Source: Oscillospiraceae bacterium (lineage in GTDB: Bacteria > Bacillota > Clostridia > Oscillospirales > Acutalibacteraceae). Taken from it: a stretch of DNA of 64,000 bases. Below the pieces are notes generated by a model. That model did not search any database, had not been told where the DNA came from, and saw only the letters and a program-made list of their open reading frames with translations. Shown here one piece after another: positions 19,061 to 63,672 of the stretch. Each line of letters starts with the position of its first letter. The first letter of the stretch is position 1. Made by a program: the position numbers and the translations under genes. The stretch spans positions 186,001-250,000 of the forward strand of contig SVOJ01000002.1 of assembly GCA_015066385.1 (NCBI GenBank), read 5' to 3'.

Positions 19061-22000
19061 TTAGTTGAGGAAGCCTTTGAACCAGTTGATGATCTTTTCA
19101 AACAGTTCAATCAACTTCTGGAAGAATTTGATAAATCCGTTGGGAATAATGCCGGCAGAATCCACAATATCCTTGAAGTTGGAATCCAGGAAATCGCCGA
19201 GGGTACCGGCAATATTATTCAGGAATTCAACGTCACTCTTTGCAAACAGATCCTGCATGAATTTATAGTTATCGTTGGCTTCGTCAAGGGATCCATCCAC
19301 GCCTTCAACAACGCCTTCAGCACCGATGAAGATGTAGTAAATGGTGTAGAGAATCTTATCCATACCATCTGTTGTCTTTGCCATATCAACGAAGTTGTCA
19401 AACAATGCACACACGAACTTAAAGCCGTCTTCACTCAATTCATCCTTGAGCATGATCTTCAGAGCTCTTGCGTTTTCTTCGACTGCAACAAATGACATCA
19501 CAAAACGAAGAATGACGGAAGTCATATCTGCTCTGTCTTCTGCAGATACATACTTCATGGTGTATGCGGTTTCGCCGTTCTTGGAGGTAAATTCAACAAC
19601 CTCACCGACAGTCAGCTCAACAATCGCATCCATAGCCATATCCTTGAAGGTAAGACCGGTGCTTTCTTCCAAATCGGTAAGAAGCTGTTCAATCAGAGTG
19701 TTGATGTTCAGTTCAGTCGGATCGAAACCGATAAGTTTATAAACATCAAGCTCGCCGATTGCGGGTTCAAGATTTTCAAGAACTGCAAAAATTGCATTTG
19801 CCGTATTCTTGATAACCGTATCAAGACCGTTGGAGTTGAGGAAGTAGATAACTGCGGGAAGGACTTCGAAGATTTCATTGACGGGATCTGCGAGAATAAG
19901 GTCTACCTTATCAAGAATCGGATCAATGATCAGACGCAGCATATTTTCGGGCTGGCTGTCAGCTGCAATCTTGAATTCATCCAGTGTGCGAATGTTTTCA
20001 CAAGCAAGAGCTTCCATCAGCGGGATAATACCGTATGCGTAACCTTCGGCACCTTCGACAACGATCATATCTCTGCCGGTTCCGTCTGCACTGTGGAACA
20101 GAGCAATCAGATCATCACCGGTCAACAGCCATGCAAGAATCGGGTAAGTCGGTTTGAAAACTCTGATCAGTTCGTTGACAAACTGTTCTCTGTTACCGTC
20201 TTCAATATCGGCAACTCTGTAATCATTCCAATAAGTCAGATCAATGCCAAGTGCTCTGTTGAGAACTTCGGCAATCATAGTGAAGAGTTCTTCACCGAGG
20301 GATTCCTTCAGACTTGCAATCAGTTCGGGAAGTGCAGTTACAATTGCATCCAGATTTGCCTTTGTGTAGATTGTGTCACCAATCAACGTATCAAGAACAT
20401 CTTCAAGATCTGCATAAGTGGTTTCACCGTCTTCTGCTTCAATGCCGAGCAGTTCAATGACTGTATCCACAAAACCGGGAAGATTTTCTTCCATGTAGCG
20501 ACCCATTTCAGGTGTGAAGTATTTACCGTAAACAAGGCCGTTGAGGCTGCCCACAAGCATGGGAGAAAGAACCGTGCCGGTACCTGCGTATTCAGTGAAG
20601 AGCCAATCGAATTCCTGAACTTCAACAGAAACTGCATTGCCGGACAGGTAAGTAAGGAGAACCTTATAAATATCCTCGCCCATCCAGTCAACAAGCTGAT
20701 CTTTATTTCTTGCATCAATGAATGCATCACCGACGAAGGAAATAACAACCGTGATCATATCTCTTCTGGATTCTTCTTCGGTGTATACCATACGGTATGC
20801 GGTTTCACCGTTTGCAGAAGTGTAAGATTCTGCTTTGCCCATGTAAAGGGTTGCAAGGAATTCCTGTGTGAAATCCGGGAAGTACAGCGGCACAAGATCT
20901 TCAACAATATCAAATACCGCATACCAATCAAGGTTGGTGATATCAATGCCCTCAATGAGGGTTGCAAAGTCAACTTCAACACCGAATGCATTGAGTTCCT
21001 TGAGAATGAAGTTTACGGGAGCCAGCAGGTTGTTGACAACTGCCTTTACACCGTCTGCATTGATGAAGTAAATGACATTGGGAAGCAGATCGAGTATAGT
21101 GCCGATTGCACCCTTTTCACCGGGATTCTGCAGATCACCGCAGATTGCATAAAGAATATCAGTGAGTGCCGTAAATACATCTCTGACGACGTTTTCCATG
21201 TCGATGTTACCATCGGCATCTGTGTAAGCACTTGCGGGCTTCATGGTTGCACCGAGTGCTTCGAGAAGCGGAACAAATGCTTCATCATAGCCTGCACCAC
21301 CCGTTATTGTGATGTGGTCAGCACCTGCGTAATCAGTAAGGAATTCGAAATCTTTTTCGAAGAGGAGCCATGCAAGCAGTCGGTAAGCGGGCTGAAGTGC
21401 TTCAACGAAGCCTTCAACAAACGCATCTCTCTTGGCTTCATTTGTAGTAGCAGAGTCAATGCCCCAATCCTTGGTGCAGGTTACGTTGCCTTCCGCATCA
21501 ACCGTGCAGTAGTCATCGAACCAGGTTGCAAGCCCCTGTGCATCAAGAAGAACGCCTGCCTTGACGATGATATCTTCATAATCAATCAAAGCACCGACAA
21601 CAGCTTCAATCAAAGAATTGAGCAGACTGTTGGTATACAAACCTCTGGTGATGGCATTATCAAGCATCTTGCCGATGCTGGTGTTTTCATCCTTTGCGAT
21701 CTTGATGATTTCCTGAACAAGCGTATCAAGTACGTCGTTGAGATAATCAGCCGTTGCTTCATTCCAGTTATTCTGGTACTGGGTGTAAATGGTGTATGCG
21801 GAGCCGGTTCTTACGGGGAATTCTCCGTCAGCATCTACAAGCTGTGCAAGGTCTCCGTCGTACATATATGCCCAATTGATGTCGGCATATTCAAATTCTT
21901 CGGTTGCACCTGCAAGCAGGTTGAGAACTGCCTGATACTGTTCAGCACCGAGAAGTTCAGAGAAGATTGTACCGTTGAGCTTGAATGCATCAAGAGCAAA

Positions 22001-25000
22001 GGAAAGGATGACGGTAAGAACATCATATTCTCTGCCGGTAATGTCAACTCTGTAAGCGGTTTCGCCGTTTACAGAAGTGAAGGAAGCGGCTTCGCCAAGA
22101 CCGTAAATATTCTTTACGGTTGCAACCATTTCGGCATTTGTAATGAAGCCGGCTTTTGTTGCAAGAAGAGCAAAGACTGCATCAGTACCAAGGTTGCTGA
22201 GGTCAAAGTTGATGAGATTTGCCAGCAGTGCCTGGAGATTGTCAGCCCCGACAACATCACTCAGCTCTGCAAGAACCGCATTGACGGGAGCAAGCAGATT
22301 TTCAACAGAAGCGGTCAGACCGTCTGCATTGATGAAGTAAAGCAGATTCGGAATGAGTGCAAATACTTCTTCAATCGGATTTGCGGAAATTTCATCCACA
22401 AGAGCAAGTGCAGAATCGAGAATATCTGCTACAGCATTGCCGACATTGTAAGTCTTGGTAGTTGCATCATAGTAAGCATCTGCACTCTTCATGGTACAAC
22501 CGAGAGCTTCGAAGATGGGTACAAGACCCTGTTTGTAACCTTCGCCGCCCTTAAGAGTGATAATAGCTTCACCGTCGGAACCGTTAAAGAAGGTGTAAGA
22601 TTCGCCGAAGAACAACCATGCAAGCAGTTCATTTGCAGGAGCAAGGACTTCCTTGAGGCCGGCAACAAATGCGGCTTTCTTTGCACCTGCATCAGAGGCA
22701 GCATCAACACCCCAATCCTTGGTGCATTCATATTTGCCGTCTGCATTGACTTCACAGAATGTGAACCAGGTTGCAATGTCTGCATCCAGAACTGCCCCGA
22801 TGAGATCAAGAAGATTTGCATCGAAGCCTGCGATTGCATTGACAATCAGTTCAACGACAGAGTTGAGGTTTGCATCGGTATACAGCTTGTCAGTGATGAC
22901 ATCATGCAGAAGCTGGCCGATGGTGCTTCCCTCTGCAACACTGTCCATAATCATGACAAGGATTTCGTCCAGTGCATCATAAGCGGCAACAGCAACGTCC
23001 TCATCCCAATCATTTGCATAAGCAAGATAGGTGAATTCAACGGTCGGGAATCCGTCTGCGGCGAGTTTTGCAAGTGCATCATCGCCTTCATACATATAAG
23101 CCCAATCGGGATCGGTGTATGTTACGGCGTATCCTTTGAGCAGTCCGCTGATGGATTCAATGATTGCGGCAGCTTCTTCACCGAGCAACCCGGTAAACAG
23201 CTCTTCATTGAGAAGGAACATTTCAAGTGCGAAGCTGATAACAAGAGTCAGCACATCGCCTTCGCGGTCAGTAATATCAAGAGTATAACCGGTAAGTTTT
23301 TCTGCATAGGTGTATGCGGAAAGTTCACCGACATACAGGGTGCTGAGGATTTCACCGAGATCATACAGTACATTACCGTCTTCGTCATAAGCGACAAACT
23401 GAATGTTAAGCGGTTCTTCATTTTCACCGACTTTGAGTTCAGTAAGAAGATCAAGAACTGCTTCAGTGGTGATGTCGGTAATATCAATGGGCAGTGCATC
23501 GCCGAGAAGAGCCGTGATGCTGATTTCTTTGCCGTCACCGAGAAGCGGACCAACCATATCAAGTAGTGCATTGACAGGTGCAAGCAGGTTGTTGACAGCA
23601 GATTTGACACCGTCAGCATTCAGGAAGTAAATGAGATTCGGCAGAAGCTGCACAACACCTTCAATGGTGCTTTCAGCAGTGGTAAGAGAATCAATGAGAT
23701 CGAACAGGCTGTTCAGGATTGCTTCAACAGCATCCACACCTGTTGCAAACGAGGCAGCGGGAGCGAGATCAATACCGAGAGCCTTAAAGATCGGCACGAT
23801 TGCTCGGTCATAACCTGCACCACCTGCAAGGGTGATAACATCATTATAAATGTAGTTATCATCAGCATCCTTATCGGCACCGGTGAAGAATGCATAATCG
23901 TCACCAAGGAACAGCCATTCAAGGAGTGCATTTGCAGGAGTGAGAACTTCCTTAAGAGCTGCAACAAAGGTTGCTCTCTTGTCGGTAGCTTCGTCAACGC
24001 CCCAATCCTTGGTGCAAACAAGCTTGGGTTCACCGGTTTCAGCATCAGTGCCTTCTACGCACATAGCGAACCAGGCAGCGATATCGGTATCAATAAGAAC
24101 ATCAACAAGGTCAAACAGAGAAGTATTGAAACCTGCAAAGAGGTTTACAATCAGTTCAACGATCATGTTGAGGTTTGCATCGGAATAAACATTGTCTTCA
24201 AGCATGCTATTGACGAGCTTTGCGACGTTGCCGTCGAAGTCAGCAGCAATCAGCGAAATGAGATCACCAAGGCTGTTATAAAGAGCATCAGCAGCTTCGG
24301 GAGTCCAATCGGTTGTGTATGCAAGATAGGAGAAGGTATCTCTCGGAGAGGGAACATTATTGAAGTCACCGTCTATGGAAAGCATGTAACCCCAGTTGGG
24401 TTCGGTATAGGTTACATCAATACCTTCAAGAATACCTGCAAGGACGGGATACAGACCGGCAATGGTTGCACTGTTCATCATTTCGCCGAGGAATGCAAAG
24501 AGGACTTCGCCGTTGGTCTTGGTTGCATCCTGTGCGGGATCATTGAGTGCTTCAAGCAGACCGGTCACAAGGATGGTGATTGCATCTGCTGCGGAAACGG
24601 TGGTCATCTTGTAAGCATAACCTTCGTCGGTGGTTACATCGACAACGCCGGAACACAGACCCGTAATACCGTATTCAACAAGGTTGCTTGCATAGAGGTT
24701 TGTGCCGATCAGAGCATCAGCAATCTTGAGAATGTCGGAAACTCTGAGGTTGTTGATGTCAATATTGATCTGTACATATTCAGGATCATCCGGGCTGATG
24801 TAAACACCGTTGAGAACGTACTGAAGAATGGTATCAATATTGAGAGATCTGTAGGAAACAAATTCGGAAAGGATAATGCTCAGAAGCTGGTTGAGATTGA
24901 TATCAAACAGCGGTCTGATGGTATCAACTAATACCAGAACGGGCATGAGCAGGTTCTGAAGCAGGACGGACAGGCCGTTGCTTTCAATGTAATAGAAGAG

Positions 25001-34676: not shown

Positions 34677-36341
34677 ATGGATCACCCCATGAACCCCATT
34701 CTGAATGCAGATATTTTCGTTCCCGATGCGGAAGCGCATGTGTGGAAAGACGGCCGAATGTATCTATACGGTTCTTTCGACATCGCAGGCAAAAAGGGCT
34801 ATTGCAGTGACGAATACCATGTGTATTCATCTGACAATCTGATCGATTGGGTTGACCACGGTGTATCATTCCGATTGAGTCAGGCAACATGGGCAAGCGG
34901 CAACACAGCGTTGTATGCTCCCGACTGTGCATACCGCAACGGAGAGTATTTTTTGTACTACTGTGTTCCCGACGGACGGTGCGGTGTTGCAAAATCCAAA
35001 AGTCCATACGGACCGTTTGAAGACATCGGCCCCATTGAACATGTAAACATGATCGATCCTGCCGTGTTTACAGATGATGACGGGCAAAGTTATCTTTATT
35101 GGGGACAGTTTGACGGTGTGCGTGTGGCAAAGCTCAAAGACAACATGACCGAAATCGACCCTGACACCATCACACAGCCGTTAAGCGTTGCCGAGCATGA
35201 ATTCCACGAAGGCAGTTCGGTCAGAAAAATCAACGGAAAATACTATTATCTGTTCACCGATACCCATCGGCACGGCGGCAGAGCCACCTCACTCGGCTAT
35301 GCCGTTTCGGACAACCCGATGACGGGCTTTGAATACAAAGGCATTATTATTGACAACTTCGGTAGTGACCCCGAAACATGGAACAACCACGGCTCGCTCG
35401 AAAGCTTCAACGGACAGTGGTATGTTTTCTATCACCGTTCCACGCACTGTTCGCCGTTTTCACGCCATGTCTGCATGGAACCGATTACAATCAACGAAGA
35501 CGGCAGTATTGATGAAGTGAAAATGACCACATCTGTCGGCAAAGATGCTATTCGTGCAAACCAGCCGTTAGCGGCACACAGGGCTTGCGAAATGGGCGGT
35601 ACAGCTTACATTGCAACGGATGCTGAATCCATTGACGGGCTTGCAATCCGTGCATCCCGATCGGGTGACAGTGTTGCCTACCGTTATCTTGCATTTGACG
35701 GCGAAGACAATTTCGGTATTATGATGTCTGCCGACAGCGATCTCAGGGCGGAAGTTTATATCGATGACAAGTATCTTACATCCTTGCACATAGAGGAAAA
35801 TGACACAGATGAAATTTTCGATGTTGAACATTCCCCCGTTTACGGTACACATACGGTGACGATTCGTCTTTTCGGTGATTTCAAGGATGCAAAAATTTCA
35901 ACATTTCTCTTTGAAAAAAGTGAACAACAACTCAGAAAGGAGCATGCTATGAAATGCCCGAATGCTTCGGATGGTCCCTATCAACTTGCTGATTGGTACT
36001 GGAAAAGCGGTTTGCATGATGCCAAAATTCTTTCGATCAACGAATTGCAACTCACACCTGACTACAAAGAAAAAAGGCCGAAAAGAAACTGCCTTGAATT
36101 GCACCTCGACTGTCAACAGGCTTTGTATGAAAGAAATATCAAAAAAATTTGTTTTTATAATTACAAACTAAAAACATACGATGTTGATCTTATGCAATTT
36201 GATCGACGTTGGTGGATACACGATACCATCCAACAATTAGACAACGGGCATTATCTGTTGGAAATTGAAGTTGAATACAAAGCAAGAAAACAAATTCAAT
36301 TTGTTATTGAATTTGAATTTGCAGAAACAGAAAGAACATAA
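34677..36341 (+). CDS. GH43 family glycosidase fused to a small C-terminal domain
   Basis: 554 residues without signal peptide, so cytoplasmic. Residues 1 to about 310 form a five-bladed GH43 propeller: NADIFVPDAEAHVW near the N-terminus supplies the general-base Asp, MIDPAVFTDDDGQSYLYWG the second Asp and HEFHEGSSVRK the acid Glu. Residues about 310-415 resemble a beta-sandwich accessory domain. Family members are mostly arabinofuranosidases or xylosidases. From residue 425 the chain is a different, Lys/Tyr-rich domain of about 130 residues with the pattern WKSGLHDAKILSI. An AAAGGAG ribosome binding site and in-frame ATG (35949) just before this domain show it was once a separate gene. AAGGAGG precedes the true start. 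Confidence 0.9.
   Translation: MDHPMNPILNADIFVPDAEAHVWKDGRMYLYGSFDIAGKKGYCSDEYHVYSSDNLIDWVDHGVSFRLSQATWASGNTALYAPDCAYRNGEYFLYYCVPDGRCGVAKSKSPYGPFEDIGPIEHVNMIDPAVFTDDDGQSYLYWGQFDGVRVAKLKDNMTEIDPDTITQPLSVAEHEFHEGSSVRKINGKYYYLFTDTHRHGGRATSLGYAVSDNPMTGFEYKGIIIDNFGSDPETWNNHGSLESFNGQWYVFYHRSTHCSPFSRHVCMEPITINEDGSIDEVKMTTSVGKDAIRANQPLAAHRACEMGGTAYIATDAESIDGLAIRASRSGDSVAYRYLAFDGEDNFGIMMSADSDLRAEVYIDDKYLTSLHIEENDTDEIFDVEHSPVYGTHTVTIRLFGDFKDAKISTFLFEKSEQQLRKEHAMKCPNASDGPYQLADWYWKSGLHDAKILSINELQLTPDYKEKRPKRNCLELHLDCQQALYERNIKKICFYNYKLKTYDVDLMQFDRRWWIHDTIQQLDNGHYLLEIEVEYKARKQIQFVIEFEFAETERT
35936..36341 (+). other. Captured C-terminal domain with relict ribosome binding site and start codon
   Basis: AAAGGAG at 35938-35944 and ATG at 35949 lie in frame within the GH43 ORF, with an ideal gap. 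The site is now read as the linker Arg-Lys-Glu-His-Ala. The 130-residue part is more AT-rich and has a composition unlike the enzyme part. The segment GLHDAKI and the alternating beta strands resemble small immunity-type proteins, but I cannot name a family. It might still be made separately from the internal start. Confidence 0.65.
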
Positions 36342-36356
36342 AGGGAGGCTTGCACA

Positions 36357-37715
36357 TTGCACTCTGACCGCACTTCCCTGACCGAGGGGTCTATCCGGAA
36401 GTCGATGCTGCTGTTTGCCTTGCCTGTTTTTTTAGGCAATGTGTTTCAGCAGTTATACAATACATTCGATGCGTGGTGTGTCGGCAATTACATAGGTGAC
36501 AATGCCCTGGCGGCTGTCAGTTCTTCGGGCAGTCTGATATTTATGATGGTCAGCTTCTTCAACGGTGTTGCCATGGGCGCAGGGGTTGTGATTGCCCGTG
36601 TTTTCGGCGCAAAACAGTTTGATGCCATGCGCAAAGCCATTCACACAGCCATTGCATTCGGTCTGGTGGTGGGTATTGTGCTGACTGTTGCAGGTGTTGC
36701 ACTGACACCGATAATACTTCGTTGGATGGATACACCCGATGAGGTCTTCCCCGAATCCGTCGCTTATTTCCGCTATTACTTTCTCGGGGCTGTTTTTGTT
36801 GTGATGTACAACATTTTCGTCGGCATTCTGCATGCCGTTGGCGACAGCAGACACCCTTTGTATTATCTGATTTTCTCCACTTTTCTCAATATTGCCCTTG
36901 ATATGCTGTTTGTTGCAGTATTGGGATTCGGTGTCGGTTCTGCCGCTGTTGCCACCACCATTTCGCAAGGGGTCAGTGCATTGCTTTGTTTGTTGCATCT
37001 GCTGCATATTGATGCTCCGTATAAAGTCTGTTTTCGGGAAATCCGCTTTCACAAAGACAGCCTCAAGGAAATCATCCGTTACGGGTTGCCTTCGGGTGTA
37101 CAGAACAGTGTGATCGCCGTTGCCAATGTGGTGGTGCAGACCAATATCAACAGTTTCGGCAAAGCAGCCATGGCAGGTTGCGGTTCTTACTCCAAATTAG
37201 AGGGATTTGCATTTCTGCCCGTTACTTGCTTTACACAGGCACTTTCCACCTTTGTCGGGCAGAATCTCGGCGCAAAACAGCATGAACGTGTCAAAAAAGG
37301 GGTTGCATTCGGTGTTGTATGCAGCTGTGTGCTTGCCGAAATCATCGGCGGATTGTCTTACATTTTTGCACCGCAACTCATCGGCTTATTCAGTGACTCG
37401 ACGGAATCCATTGCATTCGGAACACAACATATGCGAACCATTTGCCTGTTCTATTGCCTGCTTGCATTTTCTCATTGTATCGCCGGTGTCATGCGCGGTG
37501 CAGGCAAAGCGACCGTGCCGATGTTTACGATGCTTGCCTGTTGGTGCGTATTCAGGGTCAGTTATATTACTGTCGCAGTGAAGTTTATCAATGAACTCAC
37601 CACCGTGTCATGGGCATATCCGATCACATGGACACTCAGCAGTATCATCTTCCTGATTTATTTCCTCAAAGCGGATTGGATTCATACATTTGATAAAAAA
37701 GAACAAAAGGCTTGA
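36357..37715 (+). CDS. MATE family efflux transporter
   Basis: 452-residue membrane protein with twelve hydrophobic helices and the MATE pattern in helix 1 (FALPVFLGNVFQQLYNTFDAWCVG) and at the start of the second half (GLPSGVQNSVIAVANVVVQ). Probably Na+ or H+-driven export. The start is TTG at 36357, preceded by GGGAGG 8 bases upstream; no ATG fits. It follows the GH43 gene by 15 bases and belongs to the same operon. It is only distantly similar to the MATE protein at 30015-31412. Its last codons and stop lie inside the first copy of an 18-bp direct repeat that is also the left arm of a terminator hairpin. Confidence 0.92.
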   Translation: MHSDRTSLTEGSIRKSMLLFALPVFLGNVFQQLYNTFDAWCVGNYIGDNALAAVSSSGSLIFMMVSFFNGVAMGAGVVIARVFGAKQFDAMRKAIHTAIAFGLVVGIVLTVAGVALTPIILRWMDTPDEVFPESVAYFRYYFLGAVFVVMYNIFVGILHAVGDSRHPLYYLIFSTFLNIALDMLFVAVLGFGVGSAAVATTISQGVSALLCLLHLLHIDAPYKVCFREIRFHKDSLKEIIRYGLPSGVQNSVIAVANVVVQTNINSFGKAAMAGCGSYSKLEGFAFLPVTCFTQALSTFVGQNLGAKQHERVKKGVAFGVVCSCVLAEIIGGLSYIFAPQLIGLFSDSTESIAFGTQHMRTICLFYCLLAFSHCIAGVMRGAGKATVPMFTMLACWCVFRVSYITVAVKFINELTTVSWAYPITWTLSSIIFLIYFLKADWIHTFDKKEQKA

Positions 37716-37721
37716 CCGTTT
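37704..37721 (+). repeat. 18-bp direct repeat, left copy
   Basis: CAAAAGGCTTGACCGTTT, identical to 38274-38291. It contains the MATE stop codon (TGA 37713-37715). It carries the left arm and most of the loop of the terminator but lacks the right arm. Confidence 0.95.
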
Positions 37722-37752
37722 ATTATCAAATCAAACATTGCGAGGTGGTAAT

Positions 37753-38265
37753 ATGGCAAATCGGGACGTAATGTTATCTACACTAAAAGAAATCACATTT
37801 CCGATACTGTTGGAACAAGGTTTTACCGGGAAATATCCGAATTTCAGGCGTAAACTTGATAACTGCATTGAACTTGTTTCTTTTCAAAGCAACAAATACG
37901 GCGGTTCTTTTACCGTAGAGATTTCTGCCGTCTTTCCAAACGAAAAAAACAAGAATTATGAATTGTATGATGGCGTAACTGAAGAAACCTTTGGCACAGA
38001 AGCAACAAATAAGCGATACCGATTGCCGGGCATGTTTGACGGTTGGTTTTATTATCGGGATGTATATCGCAAGCACACTTTATTTTTCGGCAATGTATAT
38101 ACGGATGTTCCGGAAAAAGAAATGAATGATTTTGTCCCCCCAAAAGGATATAAATTAGTCCAAAAGTTCAATAAAAATGCAGCAATACAAATCTGCAATG
38201 AAATCAACAAACAATTAACAACGGCAGAAAAGTGGCTTAAAAATTTTGAAAAACAAAACAGGTGA
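37753..38265 (+). CDS. DUF4304 domain protein
   Basis: 170-residue cytoplasmic protein. The DUF4304 pattern is seen in ILLEQGFTGKYPNFRRKLDNCIELVSFQSNKYGGSFTVEI (residues about 16-55), followed by a RYRLPGMFDGWFYY segment. The function of DUF4304 is not established. The ATG at 37753 has GAGGTGG upstream; the longer frame that starts in the MATE tail is rejected. The gene has no promoter of its own, only 31 bases of 5' flank and 8 bases of 3' flank, and it is bounded by exact 18-bp direct repeats, so it looks like an inserted compact gene cassette read from the MATE operon. It is AT-rich. Confidence 0.88.
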   Translation: MANRDVMLSTLKEITFPILLEQGFTGKYPNFRRKLDNCIELVSFQSNKYGGSFTVEISAVFPNEKNKNYELYDGVTEETFGTEATNKRYRLPGMFDGWFYYRDVYRKHTLFFGNVYTDVPEKEMNDFVPPKGYKLVQKFNKNAAIQICNEINKQLTTAEKWLKNFEKQNR

Positions 38266-38272
38266 TAATATT

Positions 38273-38306
38273 GCAAAAGGCTTGACCGTTTGGCCAAGCC
38301 TTTTGC
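38273..38306. terminator. Bidirectional terminator between the plus-strand cassette and spoVAC
   Basis: Perfect 12-bp stem (38273-38284 against 38295-38306) with a 10-base loop and flanking T/A tracts. It can end the MATE/DUF4304 transcript on the plus strand and spoVAC on the minus strand. Confidence 0.85.
38274..38291 (+). repeat. 18-bp direct repeat, right copy
   Basis: Identical to 37704-37721, 570 bp away. It forms the left arm and most of the loop of the intact terminator at 38273-38306. Confidence 0.95.
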
Positions 38307-38308
38307 TT

Positions 38309-38758
38309 TTAAAATAAGGTTGTGATCCAATAAATCACCCCGTACAGTGTTGCAGCGGCGGTGCCGAAGACGATAACGGGGCCTGCAATGGAAAACATAT
38401 TAACGGCGGTACCGAGAATGTGCCCTTCCGTTTTGAATTCGAGCGCAGGTGAAACCACAGCATTGGCAAAGCCCGTAATAGGAACAAGCGTTCCCGCCCC
38501 TGCGTGTTTTGCAATCTTATCAAACACGCCGATTCCTGTCAGTATGGCGGCAAGTGCGACCAACGAAACGGAAACGAGTGTCCCGACGGTCTTTTCGTCT
38601 TCAATTTTGATAGCATACAATGTTTTTAAGATTTCACCGATTACACAAATTGCGCCGCCGATCAAAAAGGCTTTCAGGCAGTTTACGGCGCATGGTGAAT
38701 TCGGCGAAGCGGCTTTGGTCATGTCTGCATATTGTTTGTTTTGTTTTTTCTTTTGCAT
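38309..38758 (-). CDS. spoVAC: Stage V sporulation protein AC
   Basis: 149-residue inner-membrane protein of the spore dipicolinate channel; SpoVAC acts as a mechanosensitive channel in Bacillus (family knowledge). After a Lys/Gln-rich N-terminus it matches the family closely: CAVNCLKAFLIGGAICVIGE (helix 1, about 28-47), then ILTGIGVFDKIAKHAGAGTLVPITGFANAVVSPALEFKTEGHILG and a final helix. The ATG at 38758 has GAAAGG 9 bases upstream; the upstream ATG at 38767 lacks spacing for that site. spoVAD, normally next, is 5.8 kb away beyond opposite-strand genes. Confidence 0.95.
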   Translation of the reverse strand: MQKKKQNKQYADMTKAASPNSPCAVNCLKAFLIGGAICVIGEILKTLYAIKIEDEKTVGTLVSVSLVALAAILTGIGVFDKIAKHAGAGTLVPITGFANAVVSPALEFKTEGHILGTAVNMFSIAGPVIVFGTAAATLYGVIYWITTLF

Positions 38759-38778
38759 ATTCTTCATCCTTTCACATT

Positions 38779-38808
38779 CAGTATGAACAAAATGCAAAAG
38801 CAAATTAC
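38779..38808 (-). promoter_or_regulatory. Possible sigma-G/sigma-F type promoter of spoVAC
   Basis: Minus-strand CATACTG (38779-38785) resembles the forespore -10 consensus CATWMTA; GTAAT (38804-38808), 18 bases upstream, is a weak -35 match. Position and gene content fit, but the match is imperfect. Confidence 0.35.
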
Positions 38809-61188: not shown

Positions 61189-62422
61189 TTTTCTGAAAAA
61201 TCAGATCATCAACAGTGTTAAATACATTCCTGCAAACATTGTAAAATCATTTTTCATTCACAAAAGTTCCCCCGAAACCGAAGCATTGCGCAAAAATAAG
61301 GGCTTTGTACGCGGTGTCTGCCATGCCCCCGAAAACTTTGCACAATTGCATGAAGCCAACATCAATTGGGTGCGGCTTGACATTCCTTATCCGTTCAACG
61401 AAAACGGAGAAATACGCAAAACTTATCTTGATCGCAAAGAAGAATGTATCCGCTTCACGGAAAACGGATTCAATGTCATGGCAATTACCTATTACCCTGC
61501 CGAATGCATCAGATTCGGCGCAGATGTACGCACGACAGATGGAGAGCAGAAACTTCGTTCAACCGCGCGTTTTGTTGCAAATGACTTAAAAGACTGCGTC
61601 GCAGGCTTTCAGGTCGCAAACGAAATGGGAATGCCGCATTTTACATTACCGCTGACCATACAGGAAGCAGTGAAATTCATCGGTGTGCAACTGGAAGAAA
61701 TGTATCCTTCGCGTGGTAAAAACATCATCGGTTACAACTCCGCAGGGCCGCAGGTCGATCTGCATCTTCCCATGAAACGGTATCACAAATACTGCGATTA
61801 TGTGGGACTTGATATGTATCTCGGCTGTTTCTTCAATATGCCCGGTTTTGTGTTTCTTTTTGAAATCATGGCACGTTTTTTGTGGGCGTTTACAAGAAAA
61901 CCCATTCTCATGCAGGAATTCGGTTACATCGGTGACGGCAAGCCGAAAACAACGGAAGAAAAGAAAAAAATTCTGCAATCCTACGGTTTTAACAGCGAAA
62001 AACAGGCCGCCGCAGACATTGAAACCTTTGTAAACAACCTCTCCCCTCACTTTGCAAACCATGTCCGCAAAGCCTGCGGCAATGATGCAAATAAGTATTC
62101 TACACTTTTATTCAGCGGGGACATGAAAAATCATCTTTACAAAGAACTGCCCCGCATTACCGTCATTCCGGGCATTCCGCACACCCCCGAAGGACAGGCA
62201 AAGTTTTTTCGCAAGGTCATAAAACTGTTCTATAAACTTGATTTTGTCTGCGGAACGATCATTTACTGCTATTCCGACTACGAAAAATGCGGTTACTGCG
62301 GTCAGACTGATTGCCCGACGGAAACCCGTTGGGGGCTTGTTGACAGGCAAGGCAATCCGAAACCTGCTTATTATGCGGTCAAGGAAGTCTACGGACAAAT
62401 CAAAAATGAAAGTGAGAAATAA
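61181..62422 (+). CDS. Clan GH-A-like TIM-barrel protein, first paralog
   Basis: 413 residues, no signal peptide. The layout suggests a glycoside hydrolase clan A barrel: an early beta-strand with RLDIPYPF, FQVANEMGMPHF with a candidate acid/base Glu preceded by Asn (about 147), YVGLDMYLG, and PILMQEFGYIGDG with a candidate nucleophile Glu (about 246). A CGYCGQTDCPTETRWGLVD motif with several Cys residues near the C-terminus leads to the typical KPAYYAVKE ending. I cannot place it in a named GH family. It overlaps the vanX-like gene by 8 bases and the next paralog by 1 base. Confidence 0.82.
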   Translation: MDDFLKNQIINSVKYIPANIVKSFFIHKSSPETEALRKNKGFVRGVCHAPENFAQLHEANINWVRLDIPYPFNENGEIRKTYLDRKEECIRFTENGFNVMAITYYPAECIRFGADVRTTDGEQKLRSTARFVANDLKDCVAGFQVANEMGMPHFTLPLTIQEAVKFIGVQLEEMYPSRGKNIIGYNSAGPQVDLHLPMKRYHKYCDYVGLDMYLGCFFNMPGFVFLFEIMARFLWAFTRKPILMQEFGYIGDGKPKTTEEKKKILQSYGFNSEKQAAADIETFVNNLSPHFANHVRKACGNDANKYSTLLFSGDMKNHLYKELPRITVIPGIPHTPEGQAKFFRKVIKLFYKLDFVCGTIIYCYSDYEKCGYCGQTDCPTETRWGLVDRQGNPKPAYYAVKEVYGQIKNESEK

Positions 62423-63672
62423 TGATGGATCCGTTCTTGAAAGATCAGATAATCAACAGTATCAAGTACATTCCGACCAATATTGTCAAATCCTATTTCA
62501 CCAAAACTTATTCCGATGAAACAAAAGCGATCCGAAAAAAACTCGGATTTATCCGCGGGGCCTGCCATGTGAGTCAGGATTATGAACAGGTCAAACACGC
62601 AAATATCGAATGGATTCGCACCGATGTGCCGTTCCCGTTTGACAAGAACGGCAATGTGCGGGACGTTTACACAAAAAGAAAAGAAGAATTCAAGACCATA
62701 AAAGCGACAGGATTAAAAATTATGGCAATGACTGCCATTCCGTCGCATTGCACGGATCTCGGAATTGATCCGCGAACGGCAGAGGGTAAAAAACTCATCT
62801 GCAAAGCAGCACGGTTTACCGTGGAAGATCTGCAGGGTGTTATTGACGGCATTCAGGTTGCAAATGAAATCGGCATGCCCCGTTTTACAGTGCCTTTGAA
62901 CATGAAAGAGGGCATTGAATTTATCGGGATGCAACTGAAAGCGATGTATGACTGTCGTGGCAATATCATCATCGGTTACAACTCTGCCGGGCCGCAGGCT
63001 GACCTGCATGCAGGCTTGAAACCGTATCACAAATTCTGCGATTATGTAGGTTTGGACATGTATCTCGGTTGCTTCTTTCATCTTCCCGGCTTCATGTTTT
63101 TGTTCAATGTGATGGCAAGATACCTTTGGGCTTTCACAAAAAAGCCGATTCTGATGCAGGAATTCGGCTACATCAGCGACGGCAAACCAAAAACAAAGGC
63201 AGAAAAAAAGGAAATTCTGCACTCCTACGGCTTCGACAGCGAAAAGGCGGCAAGGGAAAATATAACGCAATTCGTAGAAAATCTGCCGAAACATTTCGGT
63301 GATCATGTAAAATATGTCTGCGAGGGAGATGCAAGCAAGTATGCGGATTTTCTGTTCAACGGCGACATGACGAATCACCTTTATAAAGAATTGCCCGCCA
63401 TCACCGTTATTCCCGGCTATCCGCACACACCCGAAGGACAGGCAAAGTTCTACACAAAACTGCTTGACAGATTTTACAACCTCGACTTTATATGCGGAGC
63501 AATCGTGTTCTGTTACACTGATTTTCCGCACTGCGCTTACTGCGGTCAGAGCGACTGTCCGACCGAGACCCGTTGGGGTCTTGTGGACAACAACGGCAAG
63601 CCGAAACCGTCTTACTACGCCGTGCAGAAAGCATTTGAAAGTTTCCGCAACAAAGACAAAGCTCCAAAATGA
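62422..63672 (+). CDS. Clan GH-A-like TIM-barrel protein, second paralog
   Basis: 416 residues, clearly homologous over its full length to the preceding gene (same N-terminal FLKxQIINSxKYIPxNIVKS pattern, VANEIGMPRF, MQEFGYISDG and CAYCGQSDCPTETRWGLVD). Both candidate catalytic glutamates are kept. The central and C-terminal parts are more alike than residues 30-120, so the copies may differ in substrate. The first ATG (62422) overlaps the upstream TAA; a second ATG follows at once. A hairpin terminator follows. Confidence 0.82.
   Translation: MMDPFLKDQIINSIKYIPTNIVKSYFTKTYSDETKAIRKKLGFIRGACHVSQDYEQVKHANIEWIRTDVPFPFDKNGNVRDVYTKRKEEFKTIKATGLKIMAMTAIPSHCTDLGIDPRTAEGKKLICKAARFTVEDLQGVIDGIQVANEIGMPRFTVPLNMKEGIEFIGMQLKAMYDCRGNIIIGYNSAGPQADLHAGLKPYHKFCDYVGLDMYLGCFFHLPGFMFLFNVMARYLWAFTKKPILMQEFGYISDGKPKTKAEKKEILHSYGFDSEKAARENITQFVENLPKHFGDHVKYVCEGDASKYADFLFNGDMTNHLYKELPAITVIPGYPHTPEGQAKFYTKLLDRFYNLDFICGAIVFCYTDFPHCAYCGQSDCPTETRWGLVDNNGKPKPSYYAVQKAFESFRNKDKAPK

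Follow-up and report, generated by a model that had tools for sequence, protein, structure and literature searches.

Gene-cassette arrays are known mainly as integrons, and accretion at the 3' ends of genes is also an established idea. CIMEs are integrase-less elements that stack by accretion, with copies of a gene's 3' end as their boundaries, e14 and phage 21 integrate into icd more than 100 bp before its stop codon and leave a truncated tail, the minimal mobile elements of Neisseria are alternative genes between conserved flanks, and the dif modules mobilised by Xer are small modules moved by a housekeeping recombinase. Here, we describe arrays of small cassettes in sporulation genes. They come from one bacterial family, the named members here being Oscillospiraceae MAGs. 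The reading we favour, and consider fairly probable, is that cassettes collect inside the 3' ends of spoVAC (in some genomes of spoIVB) by trans-acting site-specific joining combined with homologous reshuffling, and that the locus from which the analysis started is a stripped copy. The anatomy of the arrays and the sharing of cassettes are well supported; the mechanism of recombination is what we infer. In the open-licence literature, as far as its accessible passages extend, neither spoVAC nor spoIVB is named as an attachment site, and according to the accessible part of one paper spoVA genes are carried by elements and do not serve as their target (PMC6907783).

The starting locus lies in a window of 64,000 nucleotides (the whole stretch of DNA that was analysed) and consists of a DUF4304 gene between a MATE transporter gene and spoVAC. 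The features of this region are the following.

35949..36341, + strand: another cassette-type gene, of 130 aa, forming an in-frame extension at the end of a GH43 gene; homologues in L205 (G017 array) and L161 (G276)
36357..37715, + strand: MATE transporter gene (open reading frame), with its stop codon in the left repeat
37704..37721, + strand: left copy of the 18-bp repeat, comprising the MATE stop and the left arm and loop of a terminator (sequence match, folding)
37721..37752, + strand: putative remnant of a cassette leader, from a -10-like box to the ribosome site (alignment to the L039 cassette)
37722..38273, + strand: inserted segment of 552 bp, missing from G021
37753..38265, + strand: DUF4304 gene, 170 aa (PF14137; array homologues in L039 and L040)
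38273..38306, + strand: intact terminator between the insert and spoVAC (folding; counterpart of the G021 terminator)
38274..38291, + strand: right copy of the 18-bp repeat (sequence match)
38309..38803, - strand: spoVAC, intact in the window (PF03862); relatives have the attachment region of their arrays at its 3' end

The first-pass annotation had described the DUF4304 gene as an insertion into a terminator hairpin with an exact 18-bp duplication, and the local structure bears this out. The repeat CAAAAGGCTTGACCGTTT is exact on both sides of the gene; its right copy provides a strong terminator (-22 kcal/mol, z -5.7) with the left arm and the loop, and the left copy, within which the MATE stop codon falls, has no right arm and gives no fold (-0.1 kcal/mol). 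With up to three mismatches allowed no further match to CAAAAGGCTTGACCGTTT is found in the window (shuffled sequences average 0.11 matches), and the rest of the genome holds a single match with two mismatches. Exact direct repeats of at least 18 bp within 3 kb did not arise in any of 20 Markov simulations of the window; the real window contains the 18-bp pair and, at 21-24 kb and 61-64 kb, four more. These others (positions 21050-24200 and 61723-63600, up to 23 bp long and spaced by 1.2-2.5 kb) apparently lie inside repeated genes or domains. The assignment of the inserted gene rests on a match to PF14137 of 40.9 bits against a gathering cut-off of 23.2. A 7-bp inverted pair that had been pointed out near the ends of the insert is present, but it needs no function of its own, since ATTATCA overlaps the -10-like remnant and TGATAAT the DUF4304 stop codon.

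That the gene is an insertion is shown by an empty site, the search for which had been proposed as a check. Genome G021 of the same genus, with a MATE gene 97% identical, has MATE followed by one 18-bp copy, the intact hairpin (-26.1 kcal/mol) and spoVAC. Outside the window genome close MATE orthologues occur in three genomes (G021 97%, G016 89% and G001 81% identical), and the DUF4304 protein is present in one of the 26 genomes of the genus. As the MATE stop lies within the terminator arm in the window and in G021, and not in G001 or G016, a form like that of G021 is, judged by sequence comparison, the likely direct ancestor of the window locus. After MATE, G016 and G001 carry a phosphodiesterase-like gene instead of DUF4304 (as judged by Pfam for the G001 gene). 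It lies between MATE and the terminator (L007 and L080 in G001, L081 and L082 in G016) and is absent from the window and from G021. In G001 the spoVAC tail beside this gene is a fragment, and the full spoVAC is found on a different contig.

A scan of the genome contigs revealed ten loci that encode DUF4304 relatives. The closest are L039 (75% identical) and L040 (74%), both from MAGs titled Oscillospiraceae. Their genes have their own promoter and directly precede a terminator and the end of spoVAC, and both loci are arrays, in the order spoVAC tail fragment, cassette, tail fragment, DUF4304 cassette, full spoVAC. Around the remaining eight (38-50% identical) no spoVAC tail was found within the fetched stretches.

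Arrays of this kind were collected with a tail profile (A2) built from five spoVAC tail fragments, which matches 333 of 397 genomes of the family and matches spoVAC tails at least twice in 29 of them; regions were fetched for 27 of these multi-tail genomes (G336 and G422 were left out). Among 61 loci profiled, 28 (from 26 genomes, L039 and L040 included) hold at least two tails in series, with 47 cassettes altogether. All sequences are drafts (MAGs where named), and several arrays lie at contig ends. A typical cassette begins with a conserved left end (TGCTGCTGTCAATATAGGACACA) and comprises one open reading frame with a terminator and, in many cases, a promoter; the final ~126 bp of spoVAC come next. 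The junction is fixed: the tail fragment starts at model position 1-3 in 45 of the 47 cases, the exceptions being L135 (a run of N) and L138 (truncated). At the junction the spoVAC sequence finishes ...GCCCTCTGC, the cassette starts with TGCTGTCAATATAGGACACA or TTGTGTCAACTTAGGACCCA, and the native residues TEG or similar become QAEG or AEG. Inserts are 0.3-5.4 kb long (median 991 bp), and seven of the 47 exceed 1.5 kb and hold one large gene or several. In the 40 shorter cassettes the longest open reading frame covers a median of 81% and lies on the outward strand in 38, where it starts a median of 89 nt from the left end (within 75-135 nt in 31 of the 38). A stem of at least 8 bp is present in the last 75 nt of 36 of these 40, compared with none of 40 shuffled sequences. 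At L204, L208 and L212 cassette-type genes with leader matches adjoin spoVAC with no spoVAC fragment between, as if the tails had been deleted.

The left end can be aligned in 44 of the 47 cassettes (omitted are L135_c2 with N, L138_c1 with its truncated tail and the diverged L145_c1). A short palindrome GTC-N6/7-GAC is found in 38 of these left ends, in 21 of them as TGTC-N7-GACA. The hexamer TTTACA or TCTACA occurs in 34 and is followed 14-20 nt further on by a -10-like box in 29 of the 44. Ten left ends without the hexamer retain the motif. In 16 array genomes a 17-base version of the motif has 31 matches with up to two mismatches, against nine for the reversed pattern; with no or one mismatch there are 22 copies, 21 of them on contigs with spoVAC sequence, and the odd one (G223:C52) lies less than 150 bp from a contig end. 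Across the 397 genomes of the family an 18-base degenerate version with at most one mismatch gives 51 sites in 34 genomes, against nine for the reversed pattern. Nine sites were inspected singly: three look like chance matches (G153, G412, G418), two belong to spoIVB and one to spoVAC, and three (G156, G321, G426) show motif and leader with no spoVAC tail. A model of the leader (R1) matches 49 of the 397 genomes at an E value of 0.001, 33 of these at 1e-6 or better, and at 1e-6 a single one of 391 genomes drawn from the whole class, beside spoVAC. Carriage by viruses gained no support, as two exact scans of IMG/VR with 19 and 24 bases of the motif gave no match; variants would escape such a scan. 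A search of seven loci with Rfam returned three tRNAs, all outside the arrays, and no known RNA element within them.

The second target gene is spoIVB. A variant of the motif, TGTCAATATAGGACCAA, follows a spoIVB tail in five genomes (G233, G215, G123, G128 and G335), where truncated 3' ends of spoIVB are followed by GTGTGTCAATATAGGACCAA (L252, L285, L253, L286, L287). G233 and G123 contain two spoIVB fragments and the full gene, G335 one fragment and the full gene, and G215 and G128 one fragment with no full gene in the fetched stretch; the full gene of G233 matches Peptidase_S55 (E 3e-70). An exchange of cargo between the spoIVB and spoVAC arrays was considered and rejected, as only short stretches (at most 79 bp) are common to both, in one spoVAC insert (L132_c1).

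Cassettes are shared between genera. Near-identical ones occur in two genera each (L133_c1/L158_c1, 98%; L138_c2/L144_c2, 94%), as does the pair L129_c2/L136_c3 with 88% identity; L137_c2 and L143_c1 (96%) come from two congeneric species whose spoVAC flanks differ clearly, and L039_c2 and L040_c2 (98%) from two named MAGs. In the four closest pairs identity drops at the left junction, the preceding 40 bp of spoVAC being 55-85% identical, and on the right side of the shared pairs it drops at some point from the terminator end to halfway along the spoVAC tail. In L138_c2/L144_c2 the identity changes inside the motif. The tails themselves are mosaic. When 41 tail fragments were compared with the full gene of their own locus (six of L129 and L135 were omitted as those stretches contain no full gene), median identity was 87% in the 60 nt near the junction and 75% in the 60 nt near the stop. 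The gene of another genome was at least as close as the own one for 34 of the 41 stop-near halves and for 23 of the 41 junction-near halves. By these values, cassettes tend to bring the stop-near part along and to have a junction-near part derived from the host, with many exceptions: the junction-near half is strongly unlike the host gene in many fragments (e.g., L136, L137, L141). A circle model in which one half of the tail always travels with the cassette was discarded because it does not fit some of the shared pairs.

The cargo was surveyed with Pfam in 40 of 59 cassette open reading frames of at least 90 aa. Matches include DMP19, YitT, MscS, a GDSL esterase, a polysaccharide deacetylase and regulators, and many frames are without a match. 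No integrase is present among the 40, and one (L135_c2) resembles a Y1 transposase. This transposase-like gene is array cargo (L135:2671-3165); a second one (L217:1135-1614, in G302) adjoins spoVAC. An inverted copy of the motif occurs in the last 300 nt of none of the 47 cassettes. The integron integrase model TIGR02249 does not reach its cut-off in any of 24 genomes; partial matches below threshold occur in three of them and likewise, below the cut-off, in four of 14 controls. Tyrosine recombinases (PF00589) are found in all of 20 array genomes, five of which (G222, G297, G258, G215 and G428) have a single match, in a survey that covers the tyrosine type only and includes some genomes 83-85% complete; not every host therefore gives evidence of a dedicated tyrosine integrase. 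None of these matches lies on an array contig in the 20 genomes apart from two on G359:C5 (10562-12376), one of them with an in-frame stop, at 5-7 kb from a spoVAC array. In one respect the first-pass annotation is supported: the DUF4304 gene belongs to a set of cassettes that are mobile, mostly single-gene and, in the scanned frames, devoid of a recombinase.

We rank trans-acting site-specific joining with homologous reshuffling first among the mechanisms that we infer from these data. A cassette would be joined to the target gene always at the same codon, some 126 bp ahead of its stop, and the tail of the target would be duplicated in such a way that the gene retains a complete 3' end and the old tail persists as a fragment. 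The left junction is probably made site-specifically, at or beside GTC-N6/7-GAC, by a recombinase acting in trans, as is suggested by its constancy; the right end would be joined by recombination in conserved codons of spoVAC, and the arrays would be reshuffled as repeated tails and repeated leaders recombine by homology. Some observations speak against this reading. The strongly diverged junction-near tails are not predicted by a plain duplication of the host tail, the window gene is off the canonical position, and the change of identity inside the motif could come from homologous recombination. The draft state of the sequences, the arrays at contig ends and the fact that only 29 of 44 left ends show promoter pairing by the simple pattern also count against it.

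It is possible, although it falls somewhat short of probable, that the arrays represent a platform for gene capture unrelated to integrons, in which a trans-acting and perhaps housekeeping recombinase inserts small cassettes, many of them equipped with a promoter and a terminator, at a fixed codon in the 3' ends of sporulation genes (spoVAC, spoIVB). The repeated unit would then be the own tail of the target gene, so that arrays can grow without destroying it. If true, sporulation-gene arrays would be a separate route by which gut Firmicutes collect and trade small genes. Both attachment genes are defined, as are the codon of the junction and the motif at the left end, which makes the recombination reaction directly testable.

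Homologous recombination alone is a rather unlikely rival. As in minimal mobile elements, alternative genes would be swapped via repeated tails, leaders and terminators without any site-specific recombinase, and the fixed junction would go back to one ancient founding event. The mosaic tails, the change of identity inside the motif of L138_c2/L144_c2, the lack of an integrase in the scanned cassette frames and the single tyrosine recombinase match in five of the 20 array genomes are all consistent with it. However, the motif is retained where the promoter is missing and the same motif stands at the unrelated gene spoIVB, and the first insertion into an array-free gene is left unexplained.

The window copy has to be placed in relation to these arrays. 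The first-pass annotation had called the DUF4304 insert promoterless, and in the window a promoter is indeed not recognisable, the leader model giving no match. However, the 32 bases before the DUF4304 start align with the part of the L039 cassette from the -10 box to the ribosome site with a score of 31, where the best of 2000 mononucleotide shuffles reached 28 and the compared stretch was picked by eye. This alignment suggests that the window gene is a cassette gene minus most of its leader, inside the terminator between MATE and spoVAC. No spoVAC fragment lies beside it, and the spoVAC tail of the window is native, with 97% identity to G021 in the stop-near half and 85% in the junction-near half. 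The window gene thus looks like a stripped and relocated derivative of a cassette, atypical and outside the canonical arrays, and the 18-bp duplication is a trace of the relocation event and not a signature of the cassette system. A DUF4304 cassette lacking most of its leader and a spoVAC tail would have inserted into the terminator between MATE and spoVAC. The simplest course would use the 18-bp terminator arm as homology, either in a single crossover of a circle of ~570 bp or in an insertion with an 18-bp duplication, and both routes would give the observed window sequence. In its present position the gene is probably transcribed from the MATE operon. On the other side of MATE, a GH43 gene is fused in frame to the 130-aa cassette-type gene (34677-36341 for the two together). 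This extension is present in G016 and missing in G021, and relatives of the 130-aa gene are an array cassette in G017 (L205) and a gene beside spoVAC in G276 (L161). With DUF4304 and the 130-aa gene, one on each side, MATE is flanked by two cassette-type genes without full leaders.

For the window alone a canonical insertion into spoVAC may be considered, followed by loss of the right arm of the terminator, of the spoVAC fragment and of the greater part of the leader, while the native terminator took the place of the cassette's own. We regard this course as rather unlikely. It would account for the remnant from the -10-like box to the ribosome site, and in the congener G001 a spoVAC fragment adjoins the terminator; but the native stop-near tail and the G021-like terminator would demand further steps of conversion.

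Much less probable still is the proposal of the first-pass annotation that a promoterless cassette specifically targets the loops of terminators. The structure of the window and the empty site of G021 fit an 18-bp duplication in such a loop, but L039 and L040, the closest relatives, have their own promoter, at odds with a gene promoterless by design, and lie at another site, in tandem arrays inside spoVAC; no second cassette in a terminator loop was met among the loci inspected individually. Because the two closest relatives of the gene reside in spoVAC arrays, targeting of terminator loops was rejected as a general mechanism. That the arrays are remnants of insertion sequences or errors of assembly is scarcely credible, as the draft state of the genomes, the arrays at contig ends and the one Y1-transposase-like cassette protein are set against the same anatomy in 26 independently assembled genomes and 47 cassettes without an inverted motif.

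Among known systems integrons are similar in having tandem, mostly single-gene cassettes that share one orientation and one site and in many cases have no known function. The arrays described here differ in that the 24 searched genomes contain no integron integrase above the cut-off, a sporulation gene's 3' end serves as the repeat, the box pattern GTTRRRY / RYYYAAC is found in none of 44 left ends (first 30 nt), and spoVAC cassettes often have their own promoter and terminator, whereas integron cassettes are usually promoterless. An integron was rejected on the grounds of this integrase result and the junction sequence. Insertion sequences differ likewise, as only one of 40 frames is transposase-like and the cassette ends bear no inverted motif. 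With e14 and phage 21 the arrays have in common the insertion within a protein-coding gene more than 100 bp upstream of its stop; the spoVAC inserts are, in contrast, small and without phage genes. CIMEs resemble them in the absence of a recombination module from the scanned frames, in the repeats of the target-gene end as bounds and in tandem stacking; differences are the mostly single-gene size, the two sporulation genes as targets and the lack of an integrase-bearing partner element among the sequences searched. From the minimal mobile elements of Neisseria the spoVAC arrays differ in having a flank that recurs between one gene and the next and begins at a fixed codon; the mosaic spoVAC tails fit recombination in the flanks, which the fixed junction does not demand. 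As for the dif modules mobilised by Xer, the motif described here is at most a candidate Xer site, and small modules moved by a housekeeping enzyme would suit hosts in which tyrosine recombinases are few.
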